From the NCBI RefSeq assembly GCF_002831645.1, contig NZ_CP025117.1, forward strand, positions 2,433,001 to 2,497,000: a stretch of DNA of 64,000 nucleotides. Reading direction: 5' to 3'. Below, in pieces: positions 46,283 through 60,661 of this stretch. Within the stretch, counting starts at the first letter, position 1. Every line of letters starts with the position of its first letter. This stretch comes from Olleya sp. Bg11-27. Its GTDB lineage: Bacteria > Bacteroidota > Bacteroidia > Flavobacteriales > Flavobacteriaceae. A model generated the notes under the pieces. That model did not search any database and was not told the DNA's origin. It was given only the letters and a program-made list of their open reading frames with translations. Position numbers and translations under genes: made by a program.

Positions 46283-46753
46283 ATGGAAGCTATAAATACC
46301 CTTTTTGAAAGTATAAAAAACAAAGATAATACGACTTTAAAAACGTTGTTGAGTGCTAATCCTAAATTAGCAGAAGCTAAAGATCATCGCGGGTTTACGC
46401 CATTAATTTTAGCGACTTATTTTGATAATGAAACAGCTACCAAAATTTTAGTAGAACATAACGCCCCCATTAACGTTAAAGATGCGTCAGGAAACACGGC
46501 TTTGATTGGTGTGAGTTTTAAAGGAAATGTGGCTTTTGCTGAATATTTAATAGACAATGGTGCCGATTTAAATGCAATCAATGCTAACGGAACCACTGCC
46601 TTGACGTTTGCAACACAATATAATAAAGTCGACATAGTAAAACTGCTTTTAAAGCATAACGCCGATACAACCATTAAAGATAATGATGGTAAGACGGCTT
46701 TTGATTACGCTGAAGCGAAAGGGTTTACTGAAATTACTGGGCTTTTGGGGTAG
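46283..46753 (+). CDS. Ankyrin-repeat protein downstream of katG (156 aa)
   Basis: Four to five ankyrin repeats fill the protein, with the pattern 'G-x-T-P/A-L-x-x-A ... L-x-x-G/N-A-D/P-I/L-N' (KDHRGFTPLILATYFDN, KDASGNTALIGVSFKGN, INANGTTALTFATQYNK, KDNDGKTAFDYAEAKG). No signal peptide is present. Ankyrin genes next to catalases occur in Pseudomonas (AnkB with KatB) and Campylobacter and support catalase activity, so that role is inferred. It is the intact parent of the decayed fragments in the repeats between 47.4 and 57.5 kb. The segment most often found there is the third repeat, around YLIDNGADLNAINANGTT. Confidence 0.88.
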   Translation: MEAINTLFESIKNKDNTTLKTLLSANPKLAEAKDHRGFTPLILATYFDNETATKILVEHNAPINVKDASGNTALIGVSFKGNVAFAEYLIDNGADLNAINANGTTALTFATQYNKVDIVKLLLKHNADTTIKDNDGKTAFDYAEAKGFTEITGLLG

Positions 46754-46889: not shown

Positions 46890-47372
46890 TTAGGTTTTAT
46901 TTTTTATTTTATTTTCAATTTGCTTAAGAATTGTAACAAATTTTTCAAAATGATTAACATCATTAATGCCATGTGCTGGAGTTAAAATAATTCTATTTGT
47001 AGGTTTATTAAGAGTTCTAATAAATATTTTCTCATTCTTTATGTTTTCTAAGAACATTTTGTCTGAAATGAGTTTTTTTATTAAGTCTTTATTTCCGGCA
47101 AATGAAAATTGATTTCTAACAGCTATAGGAATAAATATTGCTCGATTTGGAATTATAAAGTCTAAGAATTTATTCCATAAATTTTTAGGAAAAACATTAA
47201 ATTTAATTCCATAGCTTTTGTCTAAGTGAAGTGTAATTCTAAATGGTTCCGTTGTATACATTGCTCCGCCAACTTCATTCAGGTTAATACTGATTTTTGT
47301 TCCTTTAAAATCTATAATTCCGCTTTTTTGTTGGTAACCGTATTTATCTGTTAATTCCTGAATAATACTCAT
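46890..47372 (-). CDS. Hypothetical protein (160 aa), first island cargo gene
   Basis: I do not recognise the family. The protein is basic, lacks a signal peptide and membrane segments, and ends in a Lys-rich tail (ENKIKNKT). Strand-like blocks (SGIIDFKGTKISINLNEVGG, PFRITLHLDKSYGIKFNVFP) are followed by a helical second half. It is converging with the ankyrin gene. The island repeat (47401-47735) lies just upstream of it. Its size and isolated, minus-strand position match the neighbouring immunity-like genes, but no toxin partner is visible. Confidence 0.6.
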   Translation of the reverse strand: MSIIQELTDKYGYQQKSGIIDFKGTKISINLNEVGGAMYTTEPFRITLHLDKSYGIKFNVFPKNLWNKFLDFIIPNRAIFIPIAVRNQFSFAGNKDLIKKLISDKMFLENIKNEKIFIRTLNKPTNRIILTPAHGINDVNHFEKFVTILKQIENKIKNKT

Positions 47373-47400
47373 TTGTTCAAAATTTTATAAAATTACATCT

Positions 47401-47735
47401 AACGTATACCGAATATAATTCCGATGTAATAAATGAGATTCGTAGTTAAACGAAGTTAGTTTAAAAATTAAACAAACTGAAGGTTCAATTAAAGTAAAAC
47501 GACTTTGCTTTTGCTGACTGTTTAATGGAAAATGATGCCGATTTAAATGCAAACACCATTAATTTAGATTCCTACTCGCGAGAAATGTAACAGGTAATCT
47601 GGCGCACTTTTATAAAGTGTGTCTAATTTAAATTAGCATTTGTAATGCATTAAAGTCATCATTAAAACAATTGGTACGCTTTGCAAAAGTGTATTTAAGG
47701 TGGGGTAATAATTATGGACATATGGCGTGCGAGTG
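47401..47735 (+). repeat. Island repeat, copy A (with ankyrin relic)
   Basis: In order it has the 5' block TATAATTCCGATGTAATAAA (from 47414), GAAGTTAGTTTAAAAAT, a decayed ankyrin segment at about 47482-47578 (KLKVQLK*NDFAFADCLMEN, then DADLNA), a 3' block GTCTAATTTAAATTAGCATT...GGTACGCTTTGCAAAA (47621-47688), and an end GGCGTGCGAGTG. No gene is present here, so this explains the gap 47373-47827. It lies 3' of the SUKH-like gene 47828-48184. Confidence 0.75.
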
Positions 47736-47827
47736 GTATATATTATTTCAAACAATTCTTTTAGCTTATCAAGTTTTCGATCTCTAGTAAAGGCTTCAAT
47801 TTATAAGTTCTAGTTTTTTTTATTTTT

Positions 47828-48184
47828 CTATTCAGCATTTTGATATTCATTCAGAAACGTTTTTAAATCGGTTATTTTATCTGGTTTTAAACTCATTTCT
47901 CTATAAAAATAAACATTCGGATTTTCGCTTCCGTCGGCACTAAAATACCAAAACATATATCCTTGATGCATCATAAAAACAAAATCATTTTCAGTCAAAA
48001 AGTTTTCGGCATTATCTTCTTTTAATAATTCTAAAGCCCATTCTTTTAATTTGCTTTTATCGTGATATAGGTCAGTCCCGATCAGTCCTTTTGGAATAGA
48101 TTTTTGACACTCTACATAAAAACTTGTATAAATTGATGGAAAAGTCAGGTTAAGTGTTTTTTGTAATATATTCAATTTTTCCAT
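47828..48184 (-). CDS. SUKH/SMI1-KNR4-like protein, putative immunity protein (118 aa)
   Basis: The order of elements fits the SUKH fold: an amphipathic N-terminus (LQKTLNLTFPSIYTSFYVEC), an acidic middle (ELLKEDNAENFLTENDFVFM), the aromatic strand block HQGYMFWYFSADGSENPNVY, and a C-terminal helix (KITDLKTFLNEYQ). SUKH proteins are the commonest immunity proteins of polymorphic toxins in Bacteroidota, though some have other roles. No toxin gene is in the window, so it would be an orphan. It has no signal peptide. The island repeats A (3' side) and B (5' side) flank it. Confidence 0.65.
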   Translation of the reverse strand: MEKLNILQKTLNLTFPSIYTSFYVECQKSIPKGLIGTDLYHDKSKLKEWALELLKEDNAENFLTENDFVFMMHQGYMFWYFSADGSENPNVYFYREMSLKPDKITDLKTFLNEYQNAE

Positions 48185-48189
48185 ATAGT

Positions 48190-48344
48190 TTATTTAGATG
48201 ACACATGGCCTATAGCAGCTGTTATTGTAAACTGTGTCTAATTTAAATTAGCGTTTGTAATGCATTATAGTCATAATTAAAACAATAGGTACGCTTTGCA
48301 AAATTGTACTAGGTTAAGTAATGATATGTGTCGAGTGAGTGGAG
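48190..48344 (+). repeat. Island repeat, copy B (3' module only)
   Basis: Bases 48233-48303 match copy A at 47618-47689 with about four differences in 70 (GTGTCTAATTTAAATTAGCG ... GGTACGCTTTGCAAAA), and it ends GTGTCGAGTGAGTGG. The 5' block and the ankyrin segment are absent. It lies on the 3' side of the 170-aa gene 48427-48939. Confidence 0.75.
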
Positions 48345-48426
48345 TCTTTTTGTTAATTCTAAAATTTAACCATTATTTTATTTATTGTGATAAGCTAGGC
48401 TTGTCCTTAATTATTGTTATTATTAT

Positions 48427-48939
48427 TTATTTCCTTGATTCGGCAATTAATTTCAAAGAATTAATATAATCATTATCAAATTCTATTGTTCTTAAGTCAC
48501 CTGGTCTAAATGTAATTTGTCCATCCCATTTTCCTTTGGGGGTGAAGTTCTCAATTACTAATTTTTTGGAAGTTAAACTAATCAATCTACCAAGGTACGA
48601 TGACTTTTCAGATTTAGTATAAATTTGGAATACACCAAACCTTTCTGTCAAATAGTTTAATATCGTGCTAAGATCGGTTAATGGGATTTTTTCATATTCT
48701 TTTGTTTCAATCCCTTTTAATTTAAGTACTTTTTCTGTGAATTTTTCAGGTGATTCTCGTTTAAATCCTTCTATGTTTTTATGTCTTATAATAATGTAAC
48801 CATCGATTATATAATCTACTGTATTATATTTCATCAAAGTCCAATCTTCATTATAATCAACAACAAGTCCCGTAATTATTTCATTTCGGTCAGAAAATTT
48901 TAATGAGATTAACTTCTTTAAATATTTTGGACTGTTCAT
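48427..48939 (-). CDS. Hypothetical protein with two barrel-like halves (170 aa), immunity-like
   Basis: The protein looks like an internal pair: KKLISLKFSDRNEIITGLVVDYNEDW... and LGRLISLTSKKLVIENFTPK... both have the 'R/K-L-I-S-L ... I/V-x-G/N' pattern of a small beta-barrel. There is no signal peptide or membrane helix. I do not recognise a named family. Position and size (one short minus-strand gene between island repeats B and C) match the adjacent SUKH-like gene, suggesting an accessory or immunity role, which is an inference only. Confidence 0.6.
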   Translation of the reverse strand: MNSPKYLKKLISLKFSDRNEIITGLVVDYNEDWTLMKYNTVDYIIDGYIIIRHKNIEGFKRESPEKFTEKVLKLKGIETKEYEKIPLTDLSTILNYLTERFGVFQIYTKSEKSSYLGRLISLTSKKLVIENFTPKGKWDGQITFRPGDLRTIEFDNDYINSLKLIAESRK

Positions 48940-48964
48940 TCTTGAGAGTGTTTTTTGTTTGATT

Positions 48965-49215
48965 GGAGCGTATAGCGAATAATTATATATTAGCTTAAAA
49001 GAAGTTACTTGAAAAACGTAACAAACTCAAGTTTCATTTATGTAAGTACGGATAACATTTTAAACTTGCAGATGCAAATGGTAATTCTGCACTATCTGTT
49101 ACTTTATATCTTATTGACATGCATTAAAGATTTAGTAGTACAAATACTAAACTAAATTAGGTACGCTTTGCAAAAGCGCCAGATTAAGTACGGACATATG
49201 TTGTGCGAGTAGAGT
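48965..49215 (+). repeat. Island repeat, copy C (divergent, with ankyrin relic)
   Basis: It has the block TTAAAAGAAGTTACTTGAAA...TACGGATA (48995-49054), shared with copy D at 59 of 60 bases. A different ankyrin piece follows (ADANGNSALSVTL, about 49070-49108), then CTAAACTAAATTAGGTACGC with the hairpin CGCTTTGCAAAAGCG, and an end ACATATGTTGTGCGAGT. It lies 6 bases from the 3' end of gene 49222-49614. Confidence 0.72.
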
Positions 49216-49221
49216 GGTTAA

Positions 49222-49614
49222 TTATTTTTTGTACCCTAATATCTTAATAATATTTTCATCCATGAAGTATTCAGTTTCTTTATTGTTTAAAAAAGCTAAT
49301 ATGTCATCATTTTTGTTCATTTCAATGTAGTCTATCTCTAGAAACTCTATGAACTTTCCAGAATCATCAATTAAAATTGAAGTCTCAGATAATTCTCTAA
49401 TAAAAGCACAATAATTAGCATTAGAGTTTAACAATAGTTTTATCTTAAATACTATGTTTTTATTCTCAATTATTTCAAAGATATTATGCCATTTTTGGTT
49501 ATTTAAAATTCCACTATAACCTTGTTCTGAAATAATTATTTTGGCTTTTTTAGACCTTGATAATTTTTTAAATTTTTCAGTTTTATTAATTTTTTTTGGT
49601 TTTTTATTTTTCAT
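49222..49614 (-). CDS. Hypothetical small protein (130 aa), immunity-like
   Basis: A very basic N-terminus (MKNKKPKKINKTEKFKKLSR) precedes a globular part with strands (WHNIFEIIENKNIVFKIKLL, SILIDDSGKFIEFLEIDYIE). The GYSGILNNQKWHNIFEII block resembles short immunity-type proteins of Bacteroidota, but I cannot name the family. There is no signal peptide. It is flanked by island repeats C (3' side) and D (5' side). Confidence 0.55.
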   Translation of the reverse strand: MKNKKPKKINKTEKFKKLSRSKKAKIIISEQGYSGILNNQKWHNIFEIIENKNIVFKIKLLLNSNANYCAFIRELSETSILIDDSGKFIEFLEIDYIEMNKNDDILAFLNNKETEYFMDENIIKILGYKK

Positions 49615-49652
49615 TAACTTGTTAATTCTAGTTTTAAAAGTGATTTTCGAAT

Positions 49653-49712
49653 TTAAAAGAAGTTACTTGAAAAACGTAACAAACTCAATTTTCATTTATG
49701 TAAGTACGGATA
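49653..49712 (+). repeat. Island repeat, copy D (60-bp fragment)
   Basis: It matches 48995-49054 at 59 of 60 bases, with one G-to-T change. Only this 5' part of the repeat is present. It lies 4 bases from the 3' end of the lipoprotein gene 49717-50118. Confidence 0.9.
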
Positions 49713-49716
49713 GCTT

Positions 49717-50118
49717 TTACTTTTTTAGTTCGTAAGCATTAAGCTGACCGTCTGATGTAAGATGTTCGGCATCTTTTAACTCGAAATTTCTACCAAATAT
49801 AGAATTTATATCATCAAACCGCACTCGTATTTTATTGTCTTTTATAACATACGTGCCGCTAGTCGTGATTGTTTCTTGAGAATAGTGCCAGTAAGAAGCC
49901 GTAATAGTTGTTTGGTCTACAAAAGTAATAGTAGCAAGAGTTGTTAGTGTTTGTTTAGCAAATTCTGGATTTGCTTTAGCCTCATCAGGAGATATTTGGT
50001 CTTCTGCAAAGCCTTTTTTCTCGAAGATTTTACCATCTAAATAAGTGGTCGAAACTTCATAATTCCCGATGCAAGACGTTAGTGAAAATGTAATAAGTAG
50101 AAAGGCTAGTTTTTTCAT
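49717..50118 (-). CDS. Small lipoprotein of unknown function (133 aa)
   Basis: A lipoprotein signal (MKKLAFLLITFSLTSC, lipobox LTSC with the lipidated Cys at 16) is followed by about 115 residues with lipocalin/META-like strands (TTITASYWHYSQETITTSGT, KIRVRFDDINSIFG). Outer-membrane or periplasmic anchoring is expected. No family name can be given. It lies among island repeats, with copy D at its 3' end. Confidence 0.7.
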   Translation of the reverse strand: MKKLAFLLITFSLTSCIGNYEVSTTYLDGKIFEKKGFAEDQISPDEAKANPEFAKQTLTTLATITFVDQTTITASYWHYSQETITTSGTYVIKDNKIRVRFDDINSIFGRNFELKDAEHLTSDGQLNAYELKK

Positions 50119-50189
50119 AAGTGTTAGTGTTTTTTAATAGTCAATCAATAATAATGTTTTTTTGTAGAACCAGATAGAATAGTTAAGAT

Positions 50190-50570
50190 TAAAGATTTAT
50201 AATCATGAAAACGTCAAGTGTCAATTAAATCAAAACGACCCTACTTGTGCCAAGTGTTTAATTTAAAAATATGCCCATTTAAATGGTATTAATACCAATG
50301 GAAGCAGAGTCTTTATATTTTGAAAACAATAAGATATAATAGATTTAGTAAAACTGATTTTAGATTAGATATCCGGTATAGATAATTACGGTGAACGGGC
50401 TTTGGGATATTAGGTGTACAGGACATGTGCTGTAGGATGGGGTGTTTGGTTTAAGGTCTGCGTATAAGAATAGTTTCTGTTTAGTATATGATGATTTTCT
50501 CTATGAAAACAGGACGAAACAAAAATGTACGGACGCTTGATTAAGCGCTGAATTAAGCATTGTTTTTTAA
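50190..50570 (+). repeat. Island repeat, copy E (decayed) and other intergenic sequence
   Basis: Bases 50205-50300 keep AACGTCAAGTGTCAATTAAA, then an ankyrin-like piece (AAATCAAAACGACCC...TTTAATTTAAAAATATGCCC...). A later block at about 50522-50560 (TACGGACGCTTGATTAAGCG) resembles the 3' hairpin module. The stretch from 50300 to 50520 shows nothing I can identify. No gene lies between 50119 and 50811. Confidence 0.5.
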
Positions 50571-50744
50571 TGTTGTTATTCAATTCTAATATTCAAAACC
50601 AGGGAATTTTATATTTTAACTGAGTACTAATAATTTAATTTTTTTTCAAAAAACTGTAATAAAGTGCTCTTTATTAGTTTAGTAAATGGCAGATTGACGC
50701 GTTTAATAGGATATGAGCCTTGTTTTATTTAACATTTTATTAAC

Positions 50745-50785
50745 ACAAAATCAAACAGACCAGTCTGTTTGATTTTGTAGGTTTG
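50745..50785 (+). promoter_or_regulatory. TetR-type operator and -7 box upstream of the AhpD-like gene
   Basis: A perfect inverted repeat with 16-bp arms (50745-50760 and 50763-50778; core ACAGACCAGTCTGT) abuts the -7 box TAGGTTTG at 50778-50785. It would block RNA polymerase when bound. The likely ligand-responsive regulator is the TetR protein at 53046-53609, whose own upstream region has a related palindrome. Confidence 0.8.
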
Positions 50786-50811
50786 CATTCAATTTTAAAA
50801 TTTGAAGAATT

Positions 50812-51114
50812 ATGTATGACATGAAACAATTGAATAAATTAGGAAGTTTAGGTAAAGGAGCACCGGCTACAATGAAAGCTTTTCAAGCATTGGATGAAGC
50901 AGCTATGGGAGAAGGAGCTATTCCTAAAAAATATAAAGAATTAATAGCTTTGGCAGTAGCACTAACGACACAATGTCCTTATTGTCTTGAGATTCACAAG
51001 AAACATGCAGTTGAGGCTGGAGCAACTGAAGAAGAATTAGCAGAAACAACTTTTATTGCAGCAGTATTAAGAGCAGGTGCAGCGGTTGTTCACGGTACCC
51101 ATCTTATGGAGTAA
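50812..51114 (+). CDS. AhpD/carboxymuconolactone decarboxylase-family protein (100 aa)
   Basis: The redox motif CPYCLEIH (C-x-x-C-x-x-x-H) with IPKKYKELIALAVALTTQ before it is the AhpD/CMD signature. Such proteins form oligomeric peroxidases or decarboxylases. It may start at 50812 or at the in-frame ATG at 50821. It sits right behind a strong palindromic operator and a -7 box, so it is the best candidate for a TetR-repressed, electrophile- or quinone-inducible gene. The following gap of 311 bases separates it from ridA. Confidence 0.88.
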   Translation: MYDMKQLNKLGSLGKGAPATMKAFQALDEAAMGEGAIPKKYKELIALAVALTTQCPYCLEIHKKHAVEAGATEEELAETTFIAAVLRAGAAVVHGTHLME

Positions 51115-51151
51115 CACTTTTTATTTTAATACTTTATTCAGTATTTTGATG

Positions 51152-51278
51152 ACTAGTTTTTTAATCAAACTAGTATGTTTTAAATAGGTATTAAATTAGT
51201 GAAGCCCTTATTGCCAAATAACAAAACTATAATCAGTGTCTTTTAGCACGATTATCCGATTTAGGACATTGATTATAG
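51152..51278 (+). repeat. Two intergenic palindromes between AhpD-like and RidA-like genes
   Basis: A hairpin ACTAGTTT...AAACTAGT lies at 51152-51174. A longer inverted repeat follows, with 14-base arms at 51227-51240 (CTATAATCAGTGTC) and 51265-51278 (GACATTGATTATAG), one mismatch. They may terminate the AhpD transcript or bind a regulator. The rest of the 311-base gap shows nothing. Confidence 0.5.
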
Positions 51279-51426
51279 TACTTGTTGTTATTAATTTCTT
51301 GATAATCAAGTATAAAGTCTTTCATCTATCTATAAAATATAAGTAACTAAATAGAGATATTAGTGATAATTTATAATATTAGGTGTAATTATTTATATTT
51401 TTAAACTATAACCAATAATAAAACTG

Positions 51427-51777
51427 ATGACGATAACTAGAACAGATATAACCCCGCGTATGAGTCGGATTGTTGAACATAATAATACCATTTATCTTTG
51501 TGGACAAGTGGCAAAAGATGCTACCAAAAGCATAAAGGAACAAACGATATCAACCCTAGAAAAGGTCGAAGAATTGCTTAATAAAGCGGGTTCTGACAAA
51601 AAGCATATCCTTTCGGTAACAATTTATGTGAGAGATATGAAAGACTTCTCTGCAATGAATGACGTTTGGGATGCCTGGGTAGCGGACGGTTATCAACCAG
51701 CACGTGCATGTGTAGAAGCTAGAATGGCTAGACCTGAGTTACTTGTAGAAATGTCTGTAGTTGCGGCCAAAATATAG
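51427..51777 (+). CDS. Rid-family protein (YoaB-like, 116 aa)
   Basis: The Rid fold is clear: [19 protein letters not shown], then [20 protein letters not shown], and the end [20 protein letters not shown] with the conserved arginine before E. Classical RidA hydrolyses reactive enamines made by PLP enzymes. This member, with GQVA at the N-terminal motif, belongs to a related subgroup. It precedes a PLP C-S lyase by 52 bases, an apt pairing since such lyases release 2-aminoacrylate. Confidence 0.85.
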
Positions 51778-51829
51778 CACAAAAAAATATTTAATAATCT
51801 AGCACTATACCGCTTCCTAAATTTTGTAA

Positions 51830-53038
51830 ATGATGTCATCTAAAAAATATCAATTTAATCAAGTATTAGACCGAAAAGGGACCAATGCTATGTCTATAGA
51901 AGGGTATAGAGGTTATCTTTTTGATCCAGATGAAGATCTTAGTGGTAACTATCAAGAAGCCGATTTTATTAAAATGTGGGTGGCAGATATGGAATTTGCT
52001 ATAGCACCAGAAATTATCAATGCTATGAAAAACCGCTTAGAACATCCCTTATTGGGGTATTCTATGGTAGCAGATCCGTCTTATGCTCTGAGTTTTAAGC
52101 AATGGTGTATAGAGCGTTATCAGTGGCAGTTTGATATAAACCATTTGGTACATGCTAAAGGGGTTATTCCTGCTTTGTATGATTTAATTGGTCATATCTG
52201 TAAATCAGATGAAAAAGTATTAATTGTTACGCCTTCTTATGCCTTTTTTAAGCACGGAACTGATTATAATAACGTCGCCTTGGTCTGTTCTGATTTGATA
52301 GAAGAGGAGGGCAGGTTTAATATAGATATGGATGATATTAAAAAGAAAACGGCGGATCCAAAATGTGTTTTGGCGGTGTTCTGTAATCCTCATAATCCAA
52401 CAGGTCGATTATGGTCTAAAAAAGAATTAGTTGCGTTTGGTGATGTTTGTTTAAAAAATGGATTGACTATTATATCTGACGAAATTCATTGTGATTTACT
52501 ACGTAAAGATAAACGCTTTACACCTTTGGCTAGTCTTTTTCCTAATTCGGATAAGATTATCACTTGTATGGCGCCAAGCAAAACATTTAATCTAGCTGGT
52601 AATATGTTGGCTAATATTATTATTCCCAACGAAGAATTAAGAGTTAAATACAACAAAAATTATTTACCTTTTGAAAACCCATTAAGTATTGTAGCTGCTC
52701 ATGCTGCATATTCAGAAGGTCATGCCTGGCTTACTGGATTGACAGATTATCTAGATGATAATTTTAAGTATTTAAAAAAACAATTGGATACGTATTTGCC
52801 TCATGCAGAATTTACAATTCCAGAGGCAACCTATTTGGCTTGGGTAAATATTAGTTATTATTTTTCTGATAATGAAAATCTAACCTTGTATTTTGCAAGA
52901 AATGCAGGTGTTTTACTAGAAGGAGGAAATATGTTTGTTGCTAATGCTGATGGCTATATTCGATTAAACCTTGCTTGTCCTAGAGTAATACTAGAAGAAG
53001 GTTTGCGAAGAGTCATACAAGCCGTTTTAGAAAAGTAA
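51830..53038 (+). CDS. MalY/PatB-type PLP C-S lyase/aminotransferase (402 aa)
   Basis: It is a fold-type I PLP enzyme. The N-terminal KMWVADMEFAIAPEI is typical of the MalY/PatB group (cystathionine beta-lyase). NPHNPTGRLWSKKEL and ISDEIHCDLL bind the cofactor, and the Schiff-base lysine is in MAPSKTFNLAG. It should cleave cysteine-S-conjugates to pyruvate, ammonia and a thiol. The upstream RidA-like gene would mop up aminoacrylate, and a TetR gene converges. The substrate is unknown. ATG 51833 is an equally possible start. Confidence 0.88.
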   Translation: MMSSKKYQFNQVLDRKGTNAMSIEGYRGYLFDPDEDLSGNYQEADFIKMWVADMEFAIAPEIINAMKNRLEHPLLGYSMVADPSYALSFKQWCIERYQWQFDINHLVHAKGVIPALYDLIGHICKSDEKVLIVTPSYAFFKHGTDYNNVALVCSDLIEEEGRFNIDMDDIKKKTADPKCVLAVFCNPHNPTGRLWSKKELVAFGDVCLKNGLTIISDEIHCDLLRKDKRFTPLASLFPNSDKIITCMAPSKTFNLAGNMLANIIIPNEELRVKYNKNYLPFENPLSIVAAHAAYSEGHAWLTGLTDYLDDNFKYLKKQLDTYLPHAEFTIPEATYLAWVNISYYFSDNENLTLYFARNAGVLLEGGNMFVANADGYIRLNLACPRVILEEGLRRVIQAVLEK

Positions 53039-53045
53039 TGGCTTT

Positions 53046-53609
53046 TTATTTTAATAGTATAGAACACAAATCCTTTGCTTCCTTAATAGGCCAATTTGCT
53101 TGATGCAAATAACTTTCGACAACTGCACCTTCGTAGAGTAAATATATTTTTCGAGATAGTGAGTTGATTTGTGCTTCTTTAATATTATCTAAATTAGTTG
53201 TTACCAGTTTAGTAATAAATTGAATAAACTTATTTTTTTGATTTTGTATTTCGTTTCTAATCGTTTCACTATTCCCAGAGATTTCTGAAACTGTTTTGAT
53301 AGACCAACATCCATTAAAATCTTCAGAATTATAAAATAACTCAAGAAAGTCAAAAATAGCTAATATTTGCGATTTTCCTTTTGGTTTGGAAGAGGTAAAT
53401 TCTTCCATATTTATATTGAAATTTTTGTCTTTAAAACGCAGAAAAGCAATGCAGATATCTTCCTTTGATCTAAAATGAGCATAGAGTGTCGATTTTGCAA
53501 TACCTGCTTCGGAAATAATTTCATTTATTCCTGTAGAGTTATACCCATTCTTATAAAATAAGGACGAGGCAGTTTCAATAATTCTGTTTTTAATTTCGGA
53601 GTGTTTCAC
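53046..53609 (-). CDS. TetR-family regulator (187 aa)
   Basis: The N-terminal helix-turn-helix (GINEIISEAGIAKSTLYAHF) and the all-helical ligand domain are typical of TetR/AcrR. The start codon is GTG (53609), only 4 bases after the -7 box TATATTTG (53621-53614), so the mRNA is likely leaderless. A palindrome at 53635-53658 lies just upstream for autorepression. It converges with the PatB/MalY gene. The related palindrome before the AhpD-like gene suggests that one is its other target. Ligand unknown. Confidence 0.85.
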   Translation of the reverse strand: MKHSEIKNRIIETASSLFYKNGYNSTGINEIISEAGIAKSTLYAHFRSKEDICIAFLRFKDKNFNINMEEFTSSKPKGKSQILAIFDFLELFYNSEDFNGCWSIKTVSEISGNSETIRNEIQNQKNKFIQFITKLVTTNLDNIKEAQINSLSRKIYLLYEGAVVESYLHQANWPIKEAKDLCSILLK

Positions 53610-53613
53610 TTAA

Positions 53614-53658
53614 CAAATATACAAAAACATTATAAAATAAGACAGGTCTGTCTTATTT
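53614..53658 (-). promoter_or_regulatory. Promoter and palindromic operator of the tetR gene
   Basis: A perfect inverted repeat AAATAAGACAG/CTGTCTTATTT with a 2-base spacer (53635-53658) precedes the minus-strand -7 box TATATTTG (53621-53614). Its centre shares ACAGACC with the operator at 50745. Confidence 0.7.
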
Positions 53659-53803
53659 GTACTATTACCTAACAATTGGTGTATGACTTGGGCGTGTTTA
53701 GGTCTCCGACCAAAGCTTCTTTATTTATAGTTTTTTTAGTGTATTGATAACGTGTTTTGGAATAGTGTTTTTGTTGGATTTAAGGATTCAAATAAAAGCC
53801 GCT

Positions 53804-54308
53804 TTAATATTTTTTAGTTTCATCTTTAATTTGTTTCAAGTCGCTGGGCAAATTGTTTTTTAGGAGTTCTAAACCTTTGTCATAAGCTTCTACTAGATAA
53901 ATTTGTTCTTCTTCCATGCCCTTTTTTATCCATTGTTTTTCAGCGTTTAAGTCACCTTTTCTAACAATAATTAGCTCATATTATTTAATGTTAGCTTTCC
54001 TGTTTTTTATTGTAAGTTGATTAAAATCTGAGATATCAGGATCATTATTTATATTACGTTGCCCAATATCGGCTCCTAAAAATACGTCACAATTCACGTA
54101 TTTGTAATGCGGGTTATTATTGTCAAAATTCCGAAAAATCATTTTGTCACCATTTTTAAGTATAAACGCTTTGATTTGTTCAAATTCTTCAAAACTTATT
54201 ACATCCGAGACATTTGTAAAATTCATAGTAAGGTTTTTATTTGGAATAGTTTTCACTGAGTTGCAACTTGATAAAAGTGTAAAAAACTATAAGTGTTAAT
54301 TTATCTAT
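53804..54308 (-). pseudogene. Decayed lipoprotein gene
   Basis: An intact-looking frame (53981-54256) of 91 codons ends in TAA, but the same frame goes on past that stop for 58 sense codons (YELIIVRKGDLNAEKQW ... DETKKY) to a TAA at 53804. Upstream of it the frame reads LLSSCNS, a lipobox. The preceding signal-peptide codons (DKLTLIVFYT) lie in another frame, and the would-be start is ATA (54308). Start loss, a frameshift in the signal peptide and an internal stop together mean a dead gene. The family is not recognised. It could be read through only by suppression. Confidence 0.7.
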
Positions 54309-54499
54309 TTTTTGTCTAATTCTAGGCAACGTATGGTCAGTCTTTTTTTTATTGTTTGTCCATCGTCTTTTGTTACTTATTTTTTTTATCTGACATTATT
54401 GGATTGAATTCGTGTTTAATGTTTTAATTTTCAGCACAATAGATTTGTTTTGTTTAAATATTTTAGTAAATTTAGTCAACTAAATAAATATATCGTATT

Positions 54500-54760
54500 A
54501 TGAAAAAATCAGTAAAAATTTTAACTCTAGCTTTTTCAATTTGTTTGTTTTCAAGTTTCAAGGCACCCGAAGTAACACAAATAAGTACTGCTCAAATTAG
54601 TATGTACGATTCCTGTGATGACTTAATTAAAACGTGGGTTGGTGACCTTTTTGGTATGACAGCTCATTTTAATAGTCGTGAATGTGCAGAAAATGCAGGA
54701 GCTGACAATATTCAACCAGGCGGGCTTTGGCCGCAATGTCAAACTTTTATTTGTATTTAA
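54500..54760 (+). CDS. Small cysteine-containing exported protein (86 aa)
   Basis: A signal peptide (MKKSVKILTLAFSICLFSSFKA) leads to a mature part of about 60 residues with four cysteines (SCDD, RECAEN, PQCQTFIC). The pattern suggests a disulfide-stabilised secreted peptide. Similar short 'MYDSCDDLI' proteins occur in Bacteroidota, without an assigned function. A terminator lies 46 bases after the stop. A toxin or bacteriocin role is only speculation. Confidence 0.65.
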   Translation: MKKSVKILTLAFSICLFSSFKAPEVTQISTAQISMYDSCDDLIKTWVGDLFGMTAHFNSRECAENAGADNIQPGGLWPQCQTFICI

Positions 54761-54805
54761 TTCAAATTGTATTTTCAAATTTGAAATTCAAGATTTTAAA
54801 ATAAT

Positions 54806-54840
54806 AAACCCAGAACTAAATAGATTGGTTCTGGGTTTTT
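54806..54840 (+). terminator. Terminator after the cysteine-rich peptide gene
   Basis: AAACCCAGAAC pairs with GTTCTGGGTTT around TAAATAGATTG and is followed by T. Confidence 0.85.
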
Positions 54841-54890
54841 ATATGGTTTGACTTAAAGTAAGATTTTTGCTTGTTTAACTATTTACTTAC

Positions 54891-55160
54891 TTATAGCTAA
54901 TATAATTCCGATATAATAAATGGTATTCTACGTTTACGAAGCTAGTTTAAAAATTGGATAAACTTAAGTTTTAATTAAATCAAAACGACTTTGTCTTTGT
55001 TAAGTCTTTAATCGAAAATGGTGCCGATTTAAATACAATTAATGTCACTGAAACAGTGGTAAGCTATAAAGATCTAAAGGGGGGGCGAATACTAAACTAA
55101 ATTAGACACGTTTTTTAAAACTGCGCTAGAGTACGTGATAGATGTTTCGGGCGTGAGACT
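54891..55160 (+). repeat. Island repeat, copy F (with ankyrin relic)
   Basis: In order: TATAATTCCGATATAATAAA, ACGAAGCTAGTTTAAAAAT, the ankyrin relic (about 54980-55050, FVKSLIENGADLNTINVTET after a shift), a G7 run (55079-55085), then CTAAACTAAATTAGACACG with a weak hairpin and the end GGGCGTGAG. It explains most of the gap 54841-55268 and lies on the 3' side of gene 55269-55535. Confidence 0.75.
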
Positions 55161-55192
55161 TTGTAAATAAACTAATTGTTTTATTTAAATGG

Positions 55193-55228
55193 AACAAGCT
55201 CTTAGGTCTTTAACCATAAGAGCTTGTT
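55193..55228. terminator. Stem-loop 3' of the 88-aa lipoprotein gene
   Basis: AACAAGCTCTTA pairs perfectly with TAAGAGCTTGTT around a 12-base loop. The T run is weak, so the orientation is uncertain. Confidence 0.6.
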
Positions 55229-55268
55229 ATTTGAAGAATAAATTATCTAAAACTTTAGATGTTTTAAA

Positions 55269-55535
55269 TTATTTACAGTTCTCCATTTCTTTTGCCAAAG
55301 CTTCAGCAAAAGCTTTCATATCTTCAGCAGTGTTGTATTTTTTCGTTGTTTCTAGAGAAAATTCTGTTATTTCCTTCGTAAAATCACTTGCTTTTGTAGG
55401 GTCCGCAGCCATTGCTTTTGTCATTTTGCAAGTAAGATCAGCCATTTTTTTAGCATCAGACTGCATATCATTTCCACCACCACAAGAGGTTAAAAATATA
55501 GCCCCTAAGCATATTGTAATTAGTACTTTTTTCAT
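55269..55535 (-). CDS. Small lipoprotein (88 aa)
   Basis: The signal (MKKVLITICLGAIFLTSC) ends in lipobox LTSC, followed by GGGND and a helical, Lys/Ala/Met-rich mature part (KKMADLTCKMTKAMAADPTK). Two further cysteines (in DLTCK and ENCK) could form one bridge. Periplasmic or outer-membrane anchoring is expected; the family is unknown. It is flanked by island repeats F (3' side) and G (5' side). Confidence 0.7.
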   Translation of the reverse strand: MKKVLITICLGAIFLTSCGGGNDMQSDAKKMADLTCKMTKAMAADPTKASDFTKEITEFSLETTKKYNTAEDMKAFAEALAKEMENCK

Positions 55536-55622
55536 TTTACTTAATTTAAAGATATTTTTGCTTACTCCCTTTTAAAGTCCTTTTCAGCTTGTTTTGACTG
55601 TGAAAATAATTAACAGGAACAA

Positions 55623-55654
55623 TACTACTTATATTTTGTTAAATATAAGTAGTA
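55623..55654. promoter_or_regulatory. Perfect 14-bp inverted repeat upstream of the 88-aa lipoprotein gene
   Basis: TACTACTTATATTT (55623-55636) and AAATATAAGTAGTA (55641-55654) are perfect inverted repeats 4 bases apart, about 90 bases upstream of the minus-strand gene. It could be an operator or an RNA hairpin. Apart from it and repeat G, the gap 55536-56242 shows no gene. Confidence 0.5.
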
Positions 55655-55870
55655 ATACGTGTTATTTTTATAATAATAATGCCGGATAGATTTTAAGGGT
55701 ATTCTCCTTTAAAAAAGAGTTTACTTTTAAGGAATTAAAAATCAGTCAGATAAAAAATAGTTTAAGATTTTGTGTCTTCTAGAGCATAGTATTAAACGTA
55801 TGCTGTTGTGTCTTCTCTATTTTATTTTTGTTTAATTCTATAGCGTTTGTGGTTTAGTTTTGGTAATTGT

Positions 55871-56142
55871 GGCTAACGTAAAGCCATTATAATTCCGATG
55901 TAATAAATGGTATTCTAAGTTTACGAAGTTAGTTGAAATATGGAATAAACTTAAGGTTCCATTTAAGCAAAACGACTTCACTTTTGTTAAGTATTTAATC
56001 GAAAATGGTGGCGATTTAAATACAATTAATGTCAACGACACTTTTGTAACTTAAAAGATATAAAACGTATTACTAATATTATACTAAATTAAATACGCTT
56101 TAAAAAAGCACGCTAGTGTGCGTGGTAGATATCGCGTGAGTG
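55871..56142 (+). repeat. Island repeat, copy G (best-preserved ankyrin relic)
   Basis: The copy has TATAATTCCGATGTAATAAA, ACGAAGTTAGTTGAAAT, and a 33-codon open ankyrin relic (about 55955-56053). This reads VPFKQNDFTFVKYLIENGGD then LNTINVNDTFVT and stop, and aligns without gaps to VSFKGNVAFAEYLIDNGADL then NAINANGTTAL of the intact protein. Then come ACTAAATTAAATACGCTTTA with a hairpin and the end TATCGCGTGAGTG. It lies 3' of gene 56243-57145. Confidence 0.8.
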
Positions 56143-56242
56143 AATACTTTTTTTATTCAGTATTAAGTACAATATTAATTATATGGCAAGTTGGGCAGAG
56201 CTATCACGCGAGCGAGTAAATCTATATTATTTACCTTTGTTT

Positions 56243-57145
56243 TTATTGTATCTGGTTATAATCGTTAGTAATTTGATCAGAATTGATTAAAACGTCTTCA
56301 TCAGTCATGTTCTGGTGTAATTCTTTTAATATGGAATATGTAAATTCTAAATTACCCTCATTATATCTTCTGGCCCAAAAGGTATAGATAGTAACAAGCC
56401 TAGTTTCTTGCCTTGTAAAAGAGTACTTTTTATATGTAGTGTAATTTAAATCACTTAAAGCATCTAAGATTTCGTTAGTTGCCATAGACATAATTATTGG
56501 TGTTATAGCATCATCTTGTTTACGCGATTTAGAGGCTATTTGATAAATCTGAGCTAAAGGCTCTTTTTCATTTTTGAACCCTTCATAGGACAGTAATAAT
56601 GATTTGACTATAGAATAAGCACCACAATTTTTATAGAGATTATTCTGTTTAAAAATAGAATAGGCTAGTGCTTTTATTTCTGTAGTAAGCATTTTTTCTA
56701 AGGATTCTGTGCTTCTATTAATCTTAGAGATCATATGATTAGCAAAATAATCTTCAGACCAAAATGGATATTCACCATACGCTGGATAAAAAATCCAACT
56801 AGTTCTTATTGCAGTTTCTAAGTCCCTTTTTTCTAAATTCAGGTCTTCAAAGACAAATGAGAGTAATTTTTTATTATCTATAGTAATCCACGAATCCTCT
56901 TCTAGCAAGTGACGAATATTTTCCTCTTTGACATAATTTTCCTCTTTATCTTCTTTTTTTTCAGCAAGTTCTTTTTTCTCTATGGTTAAAGACCTATTTA
57001 TTTGCAGCAAGGAATCGTTTTTATTTTTTTGAAACTCTAATTGTTGCTCTAATTGCTCTAATTGCTCTACTTTTTCTTTGTTTTTGTTTGAATTACATGA
57101 TAATGCAATTGAAATGATAAAAATTAATAGAATCTTTTTTTTCAT
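56243..57145 (-). CDS. Lipoprotein with coiled-coil N-terminus (300 aa)
   Basis: The lipoprotein signal is MKKKILLIFIISIALSC (lipobox ALSC). A coiled coil follows (VEQLEQLEQQLEFQKNKNDS onward to about residue 75) and then a mostly helical globular domain without motifs I recognise. It should be anchored in the periplasm or at the outer membrane. It stands directly after the Argonaute gene on the same strand, but about 357 bases and repeat H lie between, so co-transcription is doubtful. Confidence 0.65.
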   Translation of the reverse strand: MKKKILLIFIISIALSCNSNKNKEKVEQLEQLEQQLEFQKNKNDSLLQINRSLTIEKKELAEKKEDKEENYVKEENIRHLLEEDSWITIDNKKLLSFVFEDLNLEKRDLETAIRTSWIFYPAYGEYPFWSEDYFANHMISKINRSTESLEKMLTTEIKALAYSIFKQNNLYKNCGAYSIVKSLLLSYEGFKNEKEPLAQIYQIASKSRKQDDAITPIIMSMATNEILDALSDLNYTTYKKYSFTRQETRLVTIYTFWARRYNEGNLEFTYSILKELHQNMTDEDVLINSDQITNDYNQIQ

Positions 57146-57210
57146 TTTATTTCTTTTGTAGTTAGTGCTTTTAATAAAATATTCAATGTATTGTTTTCTT
57201 AAATGAATGC

Positions 57211-57465
57211 CAATGTATAACCCATATAATTCCGATGTAATAAATGAGATTCTAAGCTAAACGAAGTTAGTTTAAAAATCCGATAAACTTAAGGTTTCAT
57301 TAAATCAAAACGACTTTGATTTTGTTAAGTCTTTAATTGAAAATGGTGCCGGTTTAAATACAATTAATGTCACTGAAACTTTTGTAAGCTTAAAAGATAT
57401 AAAGGGGATTACAACTATTAAACTAAATTAGGTACGCTTTAAAAAAGCGTTTCAGGGGGGGGGCA
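57211..57465 (+). repeat. Island repeat, copy H (with ankyrin relic and G9 run)
   Basis: The copy reads TATAATTCCGATGTAATAAA, ACGAAGTTAGTTTAAAAAT, the ankyrin relic (about 57298-57390, DFVKSLIENGAGLNTINVTE), and CTAAATTAGGTACGCTTTAA with hairpin CGCTTTAAAAAAGCG. It ends in nine G (57455-57463) instead of the usual GCGTGCGAGTG end. It explains the gap 57146-57502 and lies 38 bases from the 3' end of the Argonaute gene. Confidence 0.75.
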
Positions 57466-57502: not shown

Positions 57503-60500
57503 TTATATAAATAATCTATAATCATATGTTCTACCTTCAAATCTTGAAAGTAATTTTCCAATTCTCGCAATCTTATTTGAAGAGTCGATAGTTGAAGGAA
57601 GCTTTGAGTATAAATCCAATGAATTCCAATTCATTTTAGTTAAGCTTAAAATTTCTGTTGAAATTAAGTCAATATTAGACTCTCCGTAATGCTTAGTTAT
57701 TTTTACTGGTGCTGGGATACTTCTACCGCCTAAGTAGAATTTATAATTCGGTTGTCGAACAGAAGGCACAATTCCGTGAGTCCATAATAGGGCGGTGTGT
57801 TTGTTCGTTACAATACAGGTTCCTCTTGAAATGGGAAACTTATCTACTTGTAATTCTTTATTATATACGCTCATTGCCACAAAACGTGCATCAGGTTCAA
57901 AACTGATTTCAATAAGGTCTATTTTTTTGATTCCAGCTTTATGTAAACTAGCTTTAATTCCGTCTATTTCTTCTTGTGTAAACTTTGTTCTTTTGTGTAT
58001 AACTACTCTTTCAGGAAGTTTATCTAGTGATTCGTAAAACAGCTCTCTAATTGAAACTCCAAATTGAAAAGCATCTTTAAATGATAAAAAAGGATTGTTT
58101 TGCTTATCAAGGAAATAGTTGTCGATTTTAGATAACTTATATTTTAAACCCTGACCGTTTGAATCATAAATGTGACTACAACCAATAACAATTTCTGATT
58201 TATCTTTTATTTTTGAAATACTATACCCAATTCCGGCATATGCTGTGTTTTTTTCCTGATTATTTAAAATCCAAGGTGTTCTTAAAGATTTCACATAAAA
58301 TGATAATGATAACCACCAATTAATCTGACAAGTTAAATTGTCTTCTAATGTTTTCTCTCTAATTAATTGTGTCGCAATTCCTTTTGAAGCAGCAAATGCT
58401 TTTACATAATCGTGTAGGTCAAAACTTTCTTCTTTGTTTACAAAACTTTCAAAATTTTGCCATTCATTTGGAATAAAAATAACGATTGTACTTTGACTTT
58501 GGGTATTCGCTATTTGTTCAATTTTTGAAGTTATAAGTCTAGCGAGTTTAATTGCATTTTCGTGTGCTTCAAGTTCATTTTCACCTCTAAAATCAATATC
58601 TAACCAACTTCCATCATTCTCAAAGTATGGAATGTTTAAGGGAATATTATAAATTGATGAAAAACCTGGGTAATCTATTAAGTAATCAGGGTTTTTATTG
58701 TCAGTTGAGTGTTTCGTTTGTAATTGGGAAAGAAAGGCATAAAACTTATTTGAATATTTTCCTCCACAAATAACAGATAAGTTTATTTCATTAGATAAGA
58801 TTACTCCATTTAGATTAACATCATAAGGACGATTATTAACTAAACCTCTCATTGGATGGTAATCTTTGAATTCCATATCTGATGAAATGTTACGGAAAAC
58901 GAGTTGTGGTTCTAAAAATTGAACACCTTTAAATTGAGTTTGTTTATTATCGTATTCTTTTGGTGCGTAACCTCTAAATTTAGGGTCTAGAACATTTATT
59001 TCTCCAAACGCTGTACTTGAGGATATTTGAAATTCAAGACCACTACCAGATTGAAGGGGGTATTCAAATTTTATTCTAGGTTTATTAAATAACAGCTTAT
59101 TCCAGTTTTCTAATATTTCGTCATACTTATTGTTATATAATTTCTCTAAGTTGTGTTTACTAATAGTTAGTTTGTCTGTTTTTGAAATTTCTTGGTCAGA
59201 CGTTAAGTTTATTGTTGGTGTAAAAGTTAAATAGCCAAAGCTTTTGTTTTTATCAAAGTAAAAAGAAAGAAATAGCGCTTTATGAATTTTGATGCTTTTA
59301 TATTCACTTTCATTTGAAGTCAACCATATTTTATTTTTATTATTGGTGGAAATTCTTTTGTCATTGGCAAAATGTTTCAAAATTGCTTGCAGCATTAAAG
59401 ACTTGAAAGCTGATACATTTTCTACATCAAACTTACTTATAGATTCTCTTTTAATATCACTTTTTAAAAGACCATTAAATGCCTTTGAAATATCGGTTAG
59501 TGTTCCAATTGCAAATACTTTTCTTTTAAAGGGAACTGCACAAATATTATTTACTTGGCAAATGGTTTTTAAAAAACTCCAAGGTTTTTCATCCTTATAG
59601 TCAATTTCAAATTGAAATACCTCTTTTGGAAAAACAACAGGGTGTAAATTACTTTTAATATATTTCCCTGTATTTGAGAAATTTAAATGAAACTCTGTTT
59701 TTAAATACTCTTCATTTTCTGAGCTTTCAAGTGCATTTTGAATTTCTTGTGAAAGAGAATCATTATCCTCAAATGCTGATTTAGCTAAATGAATTATAGT
59801 CTTATCAAATCCGTCTGTTGTTACGTAACGAGCTTCTCTTCCAGAATCTCGAACAGTTCTAAGCAACTTAGCTACTTCGTCCGATATTTCACTTCCATAA
59901 CCACACCAATACAATCTTCCAGCCCCTTTTCGAGTAAAAGCTTTTGTTAATGCGTCCATTAAAGATTTATCTCTTCCACTATAACCAGTAATTATCAAAT
60001 TTTTATCTATATGATAATTAGATAGATTATCAATAAACACTTCATTTTGTGTATCTAACTCTTCTACTGTGTTTTTTAATGAACTGAATTTATAATCACC
60101 GTGAAGAGCGATTGCAAGAAGTTCTTTGTTGCTTTGATTGCGATAGATTCTGTCTACATTATCTAGATTTATTTCTATTGGTGTCAGCTTGTTCTGATGA
60201 GCTGCACGAACAATAAGTCCGTCAAAATTAGTAGTCCAAACAGACTTGATGATATTATGCTCTGCAAGTAAGCATAATAGTTTATATCCAATATAGGGCT
60301 CTTTATTTTCTATTAGACTTAAAAAGTATTTTCTTCTATCATCACTAATTGGATATGCCTTTTCTGCAAAAAAGGAATATTCTTCATTAGAGTCTAATTC
60401 AGGATATTCTCCTTGACTATCCAGCCATTTTTGTATGCTTTTTCTAACAGAATCCTCTTTATAATTTTTATAATAATCAGATGCGTTTATATTCTTAGAG

Positions 60501-60661
60501 AGATAAATGTCTTTTTTCCATTCCCAAATGCAGTCATACGCAGATTGAATTCCTGAACTTATTGAAGCACCTGCTCCTAACAATATTGAATGAGGAACAT
60601 CAGTATTTCTTTTAAAAGACCTTAAAAAAGCATCATAATCTAGTTTTAATTCTTTTGTCAT
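57503..60661 (-). CDS. Single-chain SIR2-APAZ-MID-PIWI short prokaryotic Argonaute (SPARSA-type, 1052 aa)
   Basis: The SIR2 domain (about 20-300) has GAGAS (29-33), TTNFD (143-147), catalytic H187 (ALHGD) and GYSGRD (226-231). An APAZ-like region (about 320-620) leads to a MID domain with FDLHDYVKAFAASKGIATQL (about 747-766), the 5'-phosphate pocket type, and a PIWI domain to the C-terminus. The first catalytic Asp of PIWI is replaced (YAGIGYS, near 808-814), so slicing is not expected. The known mode of such systems is guide-directed recognition of invader DNA or RNA followed by NAD+ depletion through SIR2. The domains are on one chain, the fused subgroup. It is an anti-plasmid or anti-phage abortive system. 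It has no partner gene. Confidence 0.9.
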   Translation of the reverse strand: MTKELKLDYDAFLRSFKRNTDVPHSILLGAGASISSGIQSAYDCIWEWKKDIYLSKNINASDYYKNYKEDSVRKSIQKWLDSQGEYPELDSNEEYSFFAEKAYPISDDRRKYFLSLIENKEPYIGYKLLCLLAEHNIIKSVWTTNFDGLIVRAAHQNKLTPIEINLDNVDRIYRNQSNKELLAIALHGDYKFSSLKNTVEELDTQNEVFIDNLSNYHIDKNLIITGYSGRDKSLMDALTKAFTRKGAGRLYWCGYGSEISDEVAKLLRTVRDSGREARYVTTDGFDKTIIHLAKSAFEDNDSLSQEIQNALESSENEEYLKTEFHLNFSNTGKYIKSNLHPVVFPKEVFQFEIDYKDEKPWSFLKTICQVNNICAVPFKRKVFAIGTLTDISKAFNGLLKSDIKRESISKFDVENVSAFKSLMLQAILKHFANDKRISTNNKNKIWLTSNESEYKSIKIHKALFLSFYFDKNKSFGYLTFTPTINLTSDQEISKTDKLTISKHNLEKLYNNKYDEILENWNKLLFNKPRIKFEYPLQSGSGLEFQISSSTAFGEINVLDPKFRGYAPKEYDNKQTQFKGVQFLEPQLVFRNISSDMEFKDYHPMRGLVNNRPYDVNLNGVILSNEINLSVICGGKYSNKFYAFLSQLQTKHSTDNKNPDYLIDYPGFSSIYNIPLNIPYFENDGSWLDIDFRGENELEAHENAIKLARLITSKIEQIANTQSQSTIVIFIPNEWQNFESFVNKEESFDLHDYVKAFAASKGIATQLIREKTLEDNLTCQINWWLSLSFYVKSLRTPWILNNQEKNTAYAGIGYSISKIKDKSEIVIGCSHIYDSNGQGLKYKLSKIDNYFLDKQNNPFLSFKDAFQFGVSIRELFYESLDKLPERVVIHKRTKFTQEEIDGIKASLHKAGIKKIDLIEISFEPDARFVAMSVYNKELQVDKFPISRGTCIVTNKHTALLWTHGIVPSVRQPNYKFYLGGRSIPAPVKITKHYGESNIDLISTEILSLTKMNWNSLDLYSKLPSTIDSSNKIARIGKLLSRFEGRTYDYRLFI

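Follow-up and report, generated by a model that had tools for sequence, protein, structure and literature searches.

Why a run of repeats, each containing a piece of a neighbouring ankyrin-repeat gene, should lie among minus-strand accessory genes is the question raised by a 64,000-nucleotide stretch of Olleya sp. Bg11-27 (positions 2,433,001 to 2,497,000 of NZ_CP025117.1), here called the window. A sequence-only reading had offered two alternatives, namely that incoming DNA repeatedly joined at the ankyrin gene, each event leaving a duplicate, or that the repeat is the recombination site of a cassette system; the two are parts of one thing. Because related arrays marked by the same repeat unit, X, show cassettes, swaps and attC-like sites linked to a recombinase, we consider the window most likely, at a probability of about 0.8, to be a secondary cassette array, now eroded, that belongs to an integron-like system, an assignment drawn by sequence comparison from X and from other loci.

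The one-orientation repeat family at 47.4–57.4 kb is real. A profile of X made from 19 copies, all from outside the window, finds six copies, all on the minus strand and within the reported stretch (E 1e-6 to 3e-19), and the window's next best match has E 0.13 (Table 1). X consists of a promoter-like motif and then a short att-like hairpin; the modules TATAATTCCGATRTAATAAA and GAAGTTAGTTTAAAAAT, listed earlier as separate, are real and are both parts of it. Each repeat comprises X, mostly just upstream of a minus-strand gene, and then a piece of the ankyrin gene. The repeat had been described as a 3' element with a copy beside nearly every gene, but X usually sits on the 5' side: four of the six copies lie 13–48 nt upstream of a minus-strand start codon, and for the other two the nearest such codon is 323 and 634 nt away. 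The copy at 47385–47491 therefore belongs, as a 5' element, to the first gene (46890). The X profile detects no copy 5' of the genes at 47828, 49717 and 57503, and none between the three plus-strand genes at 50.8–53.0 kb. The hairpin module AAATTAGGTACGCTTT with its GCGTGCGAGTG end is located where an attC site would be expected, but our attC model does not recognise it. The Pfam scan covered four recombinases, six window genes and ten others, some of them also run through PADLOC, with one more gene in PADLOC only, these being a minority of the cassette genes.

Table 1. Anchor gene, X copies, ankyrin fragments and array genes, in window coordinates
Feature	Position	Strand	Evidence and remarks
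Anchor: ankyrin-repeat gene adjoining katG	46283..46753	+	ORF; fragments derive from its second half
Cassette-position gene 1	46890..47372	-	No Pfam match; X 13 nt upstream of start
X copy 1, promoter-like motif and short att-like hairpin	47385..47491	-	Profile E 2.6e-19
Ankyrin fragment from reading-frame nt 250	47507..47555	+	88% over 49 nt
SMI1/KNR4 (SUKH) family gene, weak match	47828..48184	-	PF09346 2e-6, PF14568 3e-6; X not detected
Cassette-position gene	48427..48939	-	No Pfam match; X 25 nt upstream
X copy 2, promoter half retained, att half decayed	48964..49039	-	Profile E 1.5e-7
DUF6678 gene	49222..49614	-	PF20383 7e-7; X 24 nt upstream
X copy 3, chiefly promoter half	49638..49693	-	Profile E 1e-6
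Lipoprotein-like array gene	49717..50118	-	ORF; X not detected
Ankyrin fragment from nt 251	50244..50362	+	70% over 119 nt
Weak attC-like site, the array's best attC-model match	50449..50583	-	26.2 bits; E 0.0091 in wide search, 2e-4 in narrow
X copy 4	54890..54981	-	Profile E 1.4e-10
Ankyrin fragment from nt 253	54996..55059	+	80% over 64 nt
Small lipoprotein-like gene	55269..55535	-	ORF; X 323 nt upstream
X copy 5	55858..55970	-	Profile E 1.9e-14
Ankyrin fragment from nt 251	55981..56037	+	82% over 57 nt
Cassette-position gene	56243..57145	-	No Pfam or PADLOC match; X 48 nt upstream
X copy 6	57193..57307	-	Profile E 1.8e-18
Ankyrin fragment from nt 252	57320..57369	+	82% over 50 nt
SIR2-type prokaryotic Argonaute gene, array end	57503..60661	-	PADLOC pAgo 1562 bits, PF13289 6e-10; X not detected

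The ankyrin pieces are likewise confirmed as five fragments of 49–119 nt with 70–88% identity, which begin at near-identical positions of the reading frame (nt 250, 251, 253, 251 and 252). Repeated duplication of the anchor end is seen, as the idea of repeated joining proposed, but taking the ankyrin piece for the recombination site is wrong or unproved. Close orthologues of the gene (76–86%) are found in five of nine genus mates, and comparison of the locus among the six genomes that have one found X behind the gene in two (G000, G005), none in three, and in G004 only two X matches of 17–19 nt several kilobases off; attC-like sites lie 5–11 kb beyond the gene in G003, G001 and G004. The ankyrin array of the window is too worn to show cassette ends, and the proposal of a cassette recombination site is backed by the related arrays. 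We give an even chance to the window copies being decayed remnants that now do nothing, unless perhaps they still act as promoters, which is compatible with our preferred explanation: X copies 2 and 3 retain the promoter half and have lost the att half, and the search for a recombinase elsewhere in the genome, suggested earlier, located a gene, but a broken one. Decay by itself leaves the origin of the array unexplained, and both halves are kept in the other four copies.

X occurs in all ten genomes of Olleya and at two further arrays of this genome, one of them at the 3' end of pepD. Its hairpin follows the attC plan R''-L''-loop-L'-R' with a GTT core and is 91.8% paired versus 81.4% (0 of 500 shuffles), and the promoter-like motif is present in 17 of 21 copies, chosen among 52 listed matches, versus 0.5. 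In the better-kept pepD arrays there is usually one gene between X and an attC-like site of about 130 nt, and nearly all genes are directed away from X. The earlier reading had named, as a ground for giving up the cassette idea, copies that do not flank variable genes in other strains; the pepD slot holds different genes in sister species, so the idea is not refuted. In three sister pairs identity is 0.97 beyond the X-side break and 0.30–0.38 inside, and the break falls at the GTT core.

Immediately 3' of a tyrosine recombinase, the same attC-like sites make up primary arrays, and one such array covers 86 kb with gaps. Our attC model was built from 13 seed sites beside recombinases, picked by eye from pattern matches needing an exact 6-nt stem. 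It detects sites in the pepD, L001 and other arrays not among its seeds, and in L001, L002, L014 and L015 it also picks up X, as a site of 57 nt (E 0.002–0.1); for whole-genome counts, no more than 150 candidates were scored in each genome. Sites appear at the expected place in new loci: 20 of 30 recombinase loci from other genera of the family have a match, and all 26 matches are on the recombinase strand and 3' of the recombinase. Structure is kept over sequence, the eight inner stem pairs, which the seed search did not demand, being paired in 98 of 104 cells with 15 changed on both sides; the whole seed stem is 96.7% paired versus 79.1%, partly by construction, as six outer pairs were required by the pattern search. 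Neighbouring cassettes have matching ends, mostly of 10 bp (GTT plus 7), in 136 of 145 pairs, against a mean of 15.8 and at most 27 after shuffling. This count was made on 162 distinct sites from 166 matches, 4 of 149 pairs whose R'' does not end in AAC having been dropped; the figures are 100 of 108 (9.5) without a repeated short cassette and 70 of 79 (5.3) for distinct end pairs only. The longest cassette ORF is forward in 48 of 71 cassettes and reverse in one, and 22 have none. Of 56 recombinase loci, 15 were too short to test; in 25 of the remaining 41, a GTT end no more than 150 nt from the recombinase stop has its match further downstream (p<0.05), as an attI adjoining the integrase gene should, and 17 of these 25 ends lie 15–47 nt from the stop. 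The control gave 4 of 48 other gene ends. Outside the family the test gave 4 of 10 loci, and the att evidence beyond Flavobacteriaceae is thin. That X is a MITE-like or REP-like repeat lying between genes by chance, with no cassette mobility, would suit a short, hairpin-bearing sequence in many copies; the one slot with different genes and a break at the core, the single orientation of X relative to genes and the matching cassette ends of linked arrays make this very improbable.

The recombinase has the catalytic residues R, K, H, R, H and Y, invariant in 35 of 35 relatives, falls below the TIGR02249 cut-off and scores best on the XerA-like NF040815. Relatives at E<=1e-50 are found in at most 149 of 249 family genomes, an upper bound in which shorter Xer-like proteins are counted, and G008 has attC-like sites and no such recombinase gene. 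The sedentary chromosomal integrons of Vibrio likewise have a recombinase gene adjoining an attI-like site, and the Vibrio superintegron shares the long one-direction arrays of mostly one-gene cassettes, some ORF-less, the matching cassette ends with a GTT core and the attC-like imperfect hairpins. Here, in contrast, the recombinase lacks the IntI-specific insertion (absent in 35 of 35 relatives) and has about 100 extra N-terminal residues, its gene and the cassettes read in the same direction, and the matched ends are mostly 10 bp. The anatomy supports integron-like working, but by its integrase the system does not qualify as an integron: IntI is defined by a specific additional domain in its catalytic part (PMC9668308, PMC8138268), and the insertion is said to be essential for integron function (PMC8138268).

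Like CALINs, the pepD and L001 arrays have sites and cassettes with no integrase nearby, but many genes here each come with an att unit that bears a promoter, and relics of the anchor end are present in the arrays. A CALIN is defined by at least two attC sites less than 4 kb apart with the integrase absent (PMC9668308), and off-target insertion is one proposed origin (PMC8618304). The pepD array of G001 (L015) has attC-like sites at 6410 and 8446, by our own model and not published ones, with no TIGR02249 match; the window array has one weak site only. Xer-dif modules (pdif) also are small gene modules moved in trans by Xer-like tyrosine recombinases, but they have 28-bp XerC/XerD sites, whereas the sites here are hairpins of 57–200 nt and the cassette ends match.

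How the arrays came to lie beside chromosomal genes is a separate matter. The recombinase would insert and remove cassettes at X in trans, and X may be an orphan attI with its own promoter beside pepD, the ankyrin gene and the L001 gene. More tentatively, X units might contain a duplicate of the anchor end and recombine with the anchor through this shared homology, whereupon the anchor would gain a new end and the old one would stay behind X; repeated events might then leave one relic each, the freshest closest to the anchor. Anchor-end duplication is repeated at pepD, at the L001 gene and, worn, at the ankyrin gene. At pepD, G001 has a relic, B2, that departs at 2 of 144 sites from the pepD end now found in the sister G009 and at 6 of 144 from the end of G001 itself, which are few sites. 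The expected order of decay does not hold at the pepD locus of G005 (72.6% then 74.1%), and in G000 it is weak (Spearman -0.60, p 0.12); G002 has no X behind pepD, G000 has several X with no pepD fragment behind, and the empty pepD site of G001 and G009 was not found in any genome examined. Between X and the pepD fragment, the sequence shows no alignment to pepD beyond that of shuffled sequence (p 0.21–0.97).

Ordinary tandem duplication and unequal crossing-over of a unit of anchor end, cassette and X, with the recombinase merely swapping cassettes, could also produce relics. Well-kept copies of a locus have the same fragment start, as from one ancestral joint (at pepD, -69/-70 in 6 of 19 copies, and these six are the longest among those well kept), and repeated arms of 130–300 bp exist between units. 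We hold this unlikely, if still credible, since it predicts X, not a pepD fragment, beside the downstream DNA, whereas the last copies in G001 and G009 have the fragment there, are missing the start of the cassette and continue into downstream DNA common to both; a later deletion could explain this. The fixed fragment start, intact anchor reading frame and additions at one end would also suit a site-specific integrative element that targets each anchor end and brings a replacement, like the islands that restore tRNA or protein genes, in which a duplicated target-gene end marks successive insertions. This seems improbable: the unit here is mostly a single gene without an integrase, no integron-like tyrosine recombinase is found in this genome's three arrays (TIGR02249, E<=1e-8, a threshold at which 14 of 14 control genomes also match), and X is common to three unrelated anchors, on the 3' side of pepD and the ankyrin gene and the 5' side of the L001 gene.

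A review counts Bacteroidota among the integron-bearing phyla (PMC8618304), although one survey reports that complete integrons are very rare in Bacteroidetes and names Salinibacter ruber as having one (PMC9024848). The present system was not found described in the open-access literature searched, which is weak evidence of novelty. Judged from sequence, we lean towards a second kind of integron in Flavobacteriaceae, and perhaps other Bacteroidia, with a XerA-like recombinase lacking the IntI insertion, which would be either a branch from before the insertion or an independent invention of folded-site cassette capture; in Olleya it would also run satellite arrays, in which many cassettes are each supplied with a promoter-att unit and which homologous recombination would have planted at chromosomal genes, leaving anchor-end fossils that can be dated. 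If this is true, a group of integrons has been overlooked because its integrase lacks the domain used for recognising integrons, and the need for the IntI insertion in folded attC recombination becomes testable. The secondary arrays suggest a concrete route to integrase-less cassette clusters, one in which the anchor relics would record the order of events.

A search of the whole Bg11-27 genome (one contig, 4.31 Mb) with the best window copy of the repeat returns 21 matches. The window accounts for six of them, a second array (L001) for another six and a third (L002, at pepD) for eight; the remaining one is a lone hairpin. The arrays have in common a block of ~85 nt, here called X, and a profile made without the window copies finds six X copies in the window, all on the minus strand. 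The sequence-only reading had set the element on the 3' side of nearly every minus-strand accessory gene of the window array; its side has to be reversed, because four of the six copies lie 13–48 nt upstream of a minus-strand start codon, so that X is mostly a 5' element. In gene direction X runs from a promoter-like motif through R'' (GTTTAAC) and a hairpin to a core GTT. The motif, TTG-N(17-23)-TANNTTYG, which we take to be the flavobacterial promoter form, is present in 17 of the 21 copies chosen, vs a mean of 0.5 and at most 4 on shuffling, and the hairpin covaries, with 91.8% of cells paired vs 81.4% when shuffled and a covariation score of 0.305 vs 0.127, reached by none of 500 shuffles. 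All ten genomes of the genus (G000, the present one, and G001–G009) have X, some of them as a single copy, and 2 of 30 other relatives give weak matches to it.

The genus also carries an extra tyrosine recombinase of 378–408 aa, whose stop codon is immediately followed by an attI-like GTT core and cassettes. No copy scores above the integron-integrase family cut-off; a search with that family alone is not specific, giving a signal in 14 of 14 controls. The gene is one open frame in seven of the ten genomes, two of which (G001 and G009) have a divergent form at another place with 35–36% identity; this genome and G004 have a broken version, and searches with the integron-integrase family and with relatives did not find the gene in G008.

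From 13 sites 3' of recombinases we built a covariance model of the attC-like site, whose six outer stem pairs were demanded by the pattern search and hence carry a seed bias; of the 104 cells in the eight inner pairs, 98 are paired, 15 with both sides changed. With the training sites counted in, 29 loci yield 56 matches to the model; 13 more loci yield 166. In other genera of the family 20 of 30 recombinase loci have matches, 26 altogether, and every one of these 26 lies on the strand, and on the side of the recombinase, where it was expected. Whole genomes hold 24–112 sites, from at most 150 scored candidates each. Cassette ends match in 136 of 145 neighbouring pairs vs 15.8 by chance, in 100 of 108 (vs 9.5) without the repeated short cassette, and in 70 of 79 (vs 5.3) when each distinct end pair is taken once. 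Of 71 cassettes, 48 have their gene pointing forward and one backward, and 22 have no ORF of 50 aa; among the cassettes of G001 is one for a type IIG restriction enzyme. Among cassettes below 450 bp, 36 of 40, from 13 loci, share their first ten bases and are copies of one ORF-less cassette of ~356 bp, which starts with GTTGCCTACA.

The L002 array begins at pepD's 3' end, and eight of the ten genomes have copies of X behind pepD, partial ones among them; none is present in the 12 kb fetched behind pepD of G002, and the G006 contig stops too soon to show X. In pepD direction the order is pepD end and terminator, attC-like site, convergent gene, X and a copy of the pepD end, repeating, with the coding fragment absent behind several X of G000 and behind X of G007 and G008. 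In three sister pairs (G000/G003, G007/G008, G001/G009) the slot gene differs, with identity of 0.30–0.38 inside the slot and 97% on the X side; attC letters at the start of both cassettes make the opposite junction less sharp.

In six genomes pepD is followed by pepD fragments, 19 in total. The longest well-kept fragments, six in number (≥128 nt, 85–98%), begin at -69 or -70, and the other 13, shorter or more worn, between -67 and +28; five ankyrin copies begin at reading-frame nt 250–253, and the L001 anchor (the gene end that recurs) is the 5' end of a gene. A cassette start like TTTAACG follows most internal anchor copies; in G001 and in G009 the final copy has none and continues into downstream DNA common to both, part of which G003 has behind its own array. 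Short pieces apart, similarity to the anchor drops with distance in G003, G001, L001 and a further locus (L013), roughly in G000 (p 0.12), and not in G005. Relic B2 of G001 differs from the present pepD end of G009 at 2/144 sites vs 4/144 from G001's own, and relic B3 at 9/142 vs 15/143; the two present ends differ at 6/144. A unit recombining with its anchor would push the old pepD end behind X, and the relics may be such displaced ends, a reading that is suggestive, not proved. No empty pepD site was found among the genomes examined.

Six genomes have a close orthologue of the ankyrin gene, and X lies behind it in two of them only, G000 and G005; the stop codon and the first X of G005 are 51 nt apart with no gene between, which resembles an empty site. 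The window array's own attC-like sites are too worn for the attC model to recognise, and two of its X copies retain the promoter half and have lost the att half. A SUKH-family gene lies in or beside the array.

Coordinates of the arrays and of features in or near them
Feature	Location	Remarks
Window repeat copies	window 47.4–57.4 kb	repeat search
SIR2-type Argonaute	window 57503–60661 (-)	far array end; long, N-terminal SIR2 domain; PADLOC pAgo 1562 bits
Lone AAATTAGGTACGCTTT hairpin	G000:C1:4128689 (L003 5690–5730)	no X detected with it
IS transposase	L001 7391–8950	inside L001 array
IS transposase, apparently the same	L062 52–699	beside broken recombinase gene of this genome
69 attC-like sites	G001 1,490,250–1,576,138	behind recombinase at 1,488,783; gaps of 22.8 and 6.6 kb
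Second long cassette array	G001:C1:307857–343900 (L111, L112)	127-aa recombinase remnant beside it
Four ~356-bp ORF-less cassettes in a row	L106 14082–15507
Flavo-1 RNA (Rfam RF01705)	L015 11348–11413	~2 kb from pepD array of G001
attC-like sites past ankyrin gene	G003, G001, G004 (L035, L036, L037)	5–11 kb past; no X adjoining gene

At E≤1e-50, relatives of the recombinase occur in no more than 149 of 249 family genomes; at E≤1e-70 they occur in 35 of 295 genomes of the class, which we take to be Bacteroidia. A test free of the attC model looks for a GTT end no more than 150 nt from the recombinase stop that is matched further on; of 41 testable loci 25 reach p<0.05, vs 4 of 48 other gene ends. 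The 41 include ten from outside the family, four of them with p<0.05. Of 18 class-level loci searched with the attC model, the two from the own family account for both strong sites, and the 16 others give two weak attC-like sites (E 0.001–0.002). The system is well supported within the family and, because four of ten outside loci pass the GTT-end test and attC-like sites there are only weak, only hinted at beyond it. Neither this limited reach nor the seed bias alters our odds: cassette ends, swaps at the core, and the strand and side of the attC-like sites are the chief evidence, and they rest on neither. Judged by the anatomical tests run, the system would work like an integron; its integrase lacks the IntI-specific domain and on that point places it outside the integrons proper. 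The closest filing would be as a new integron variant.
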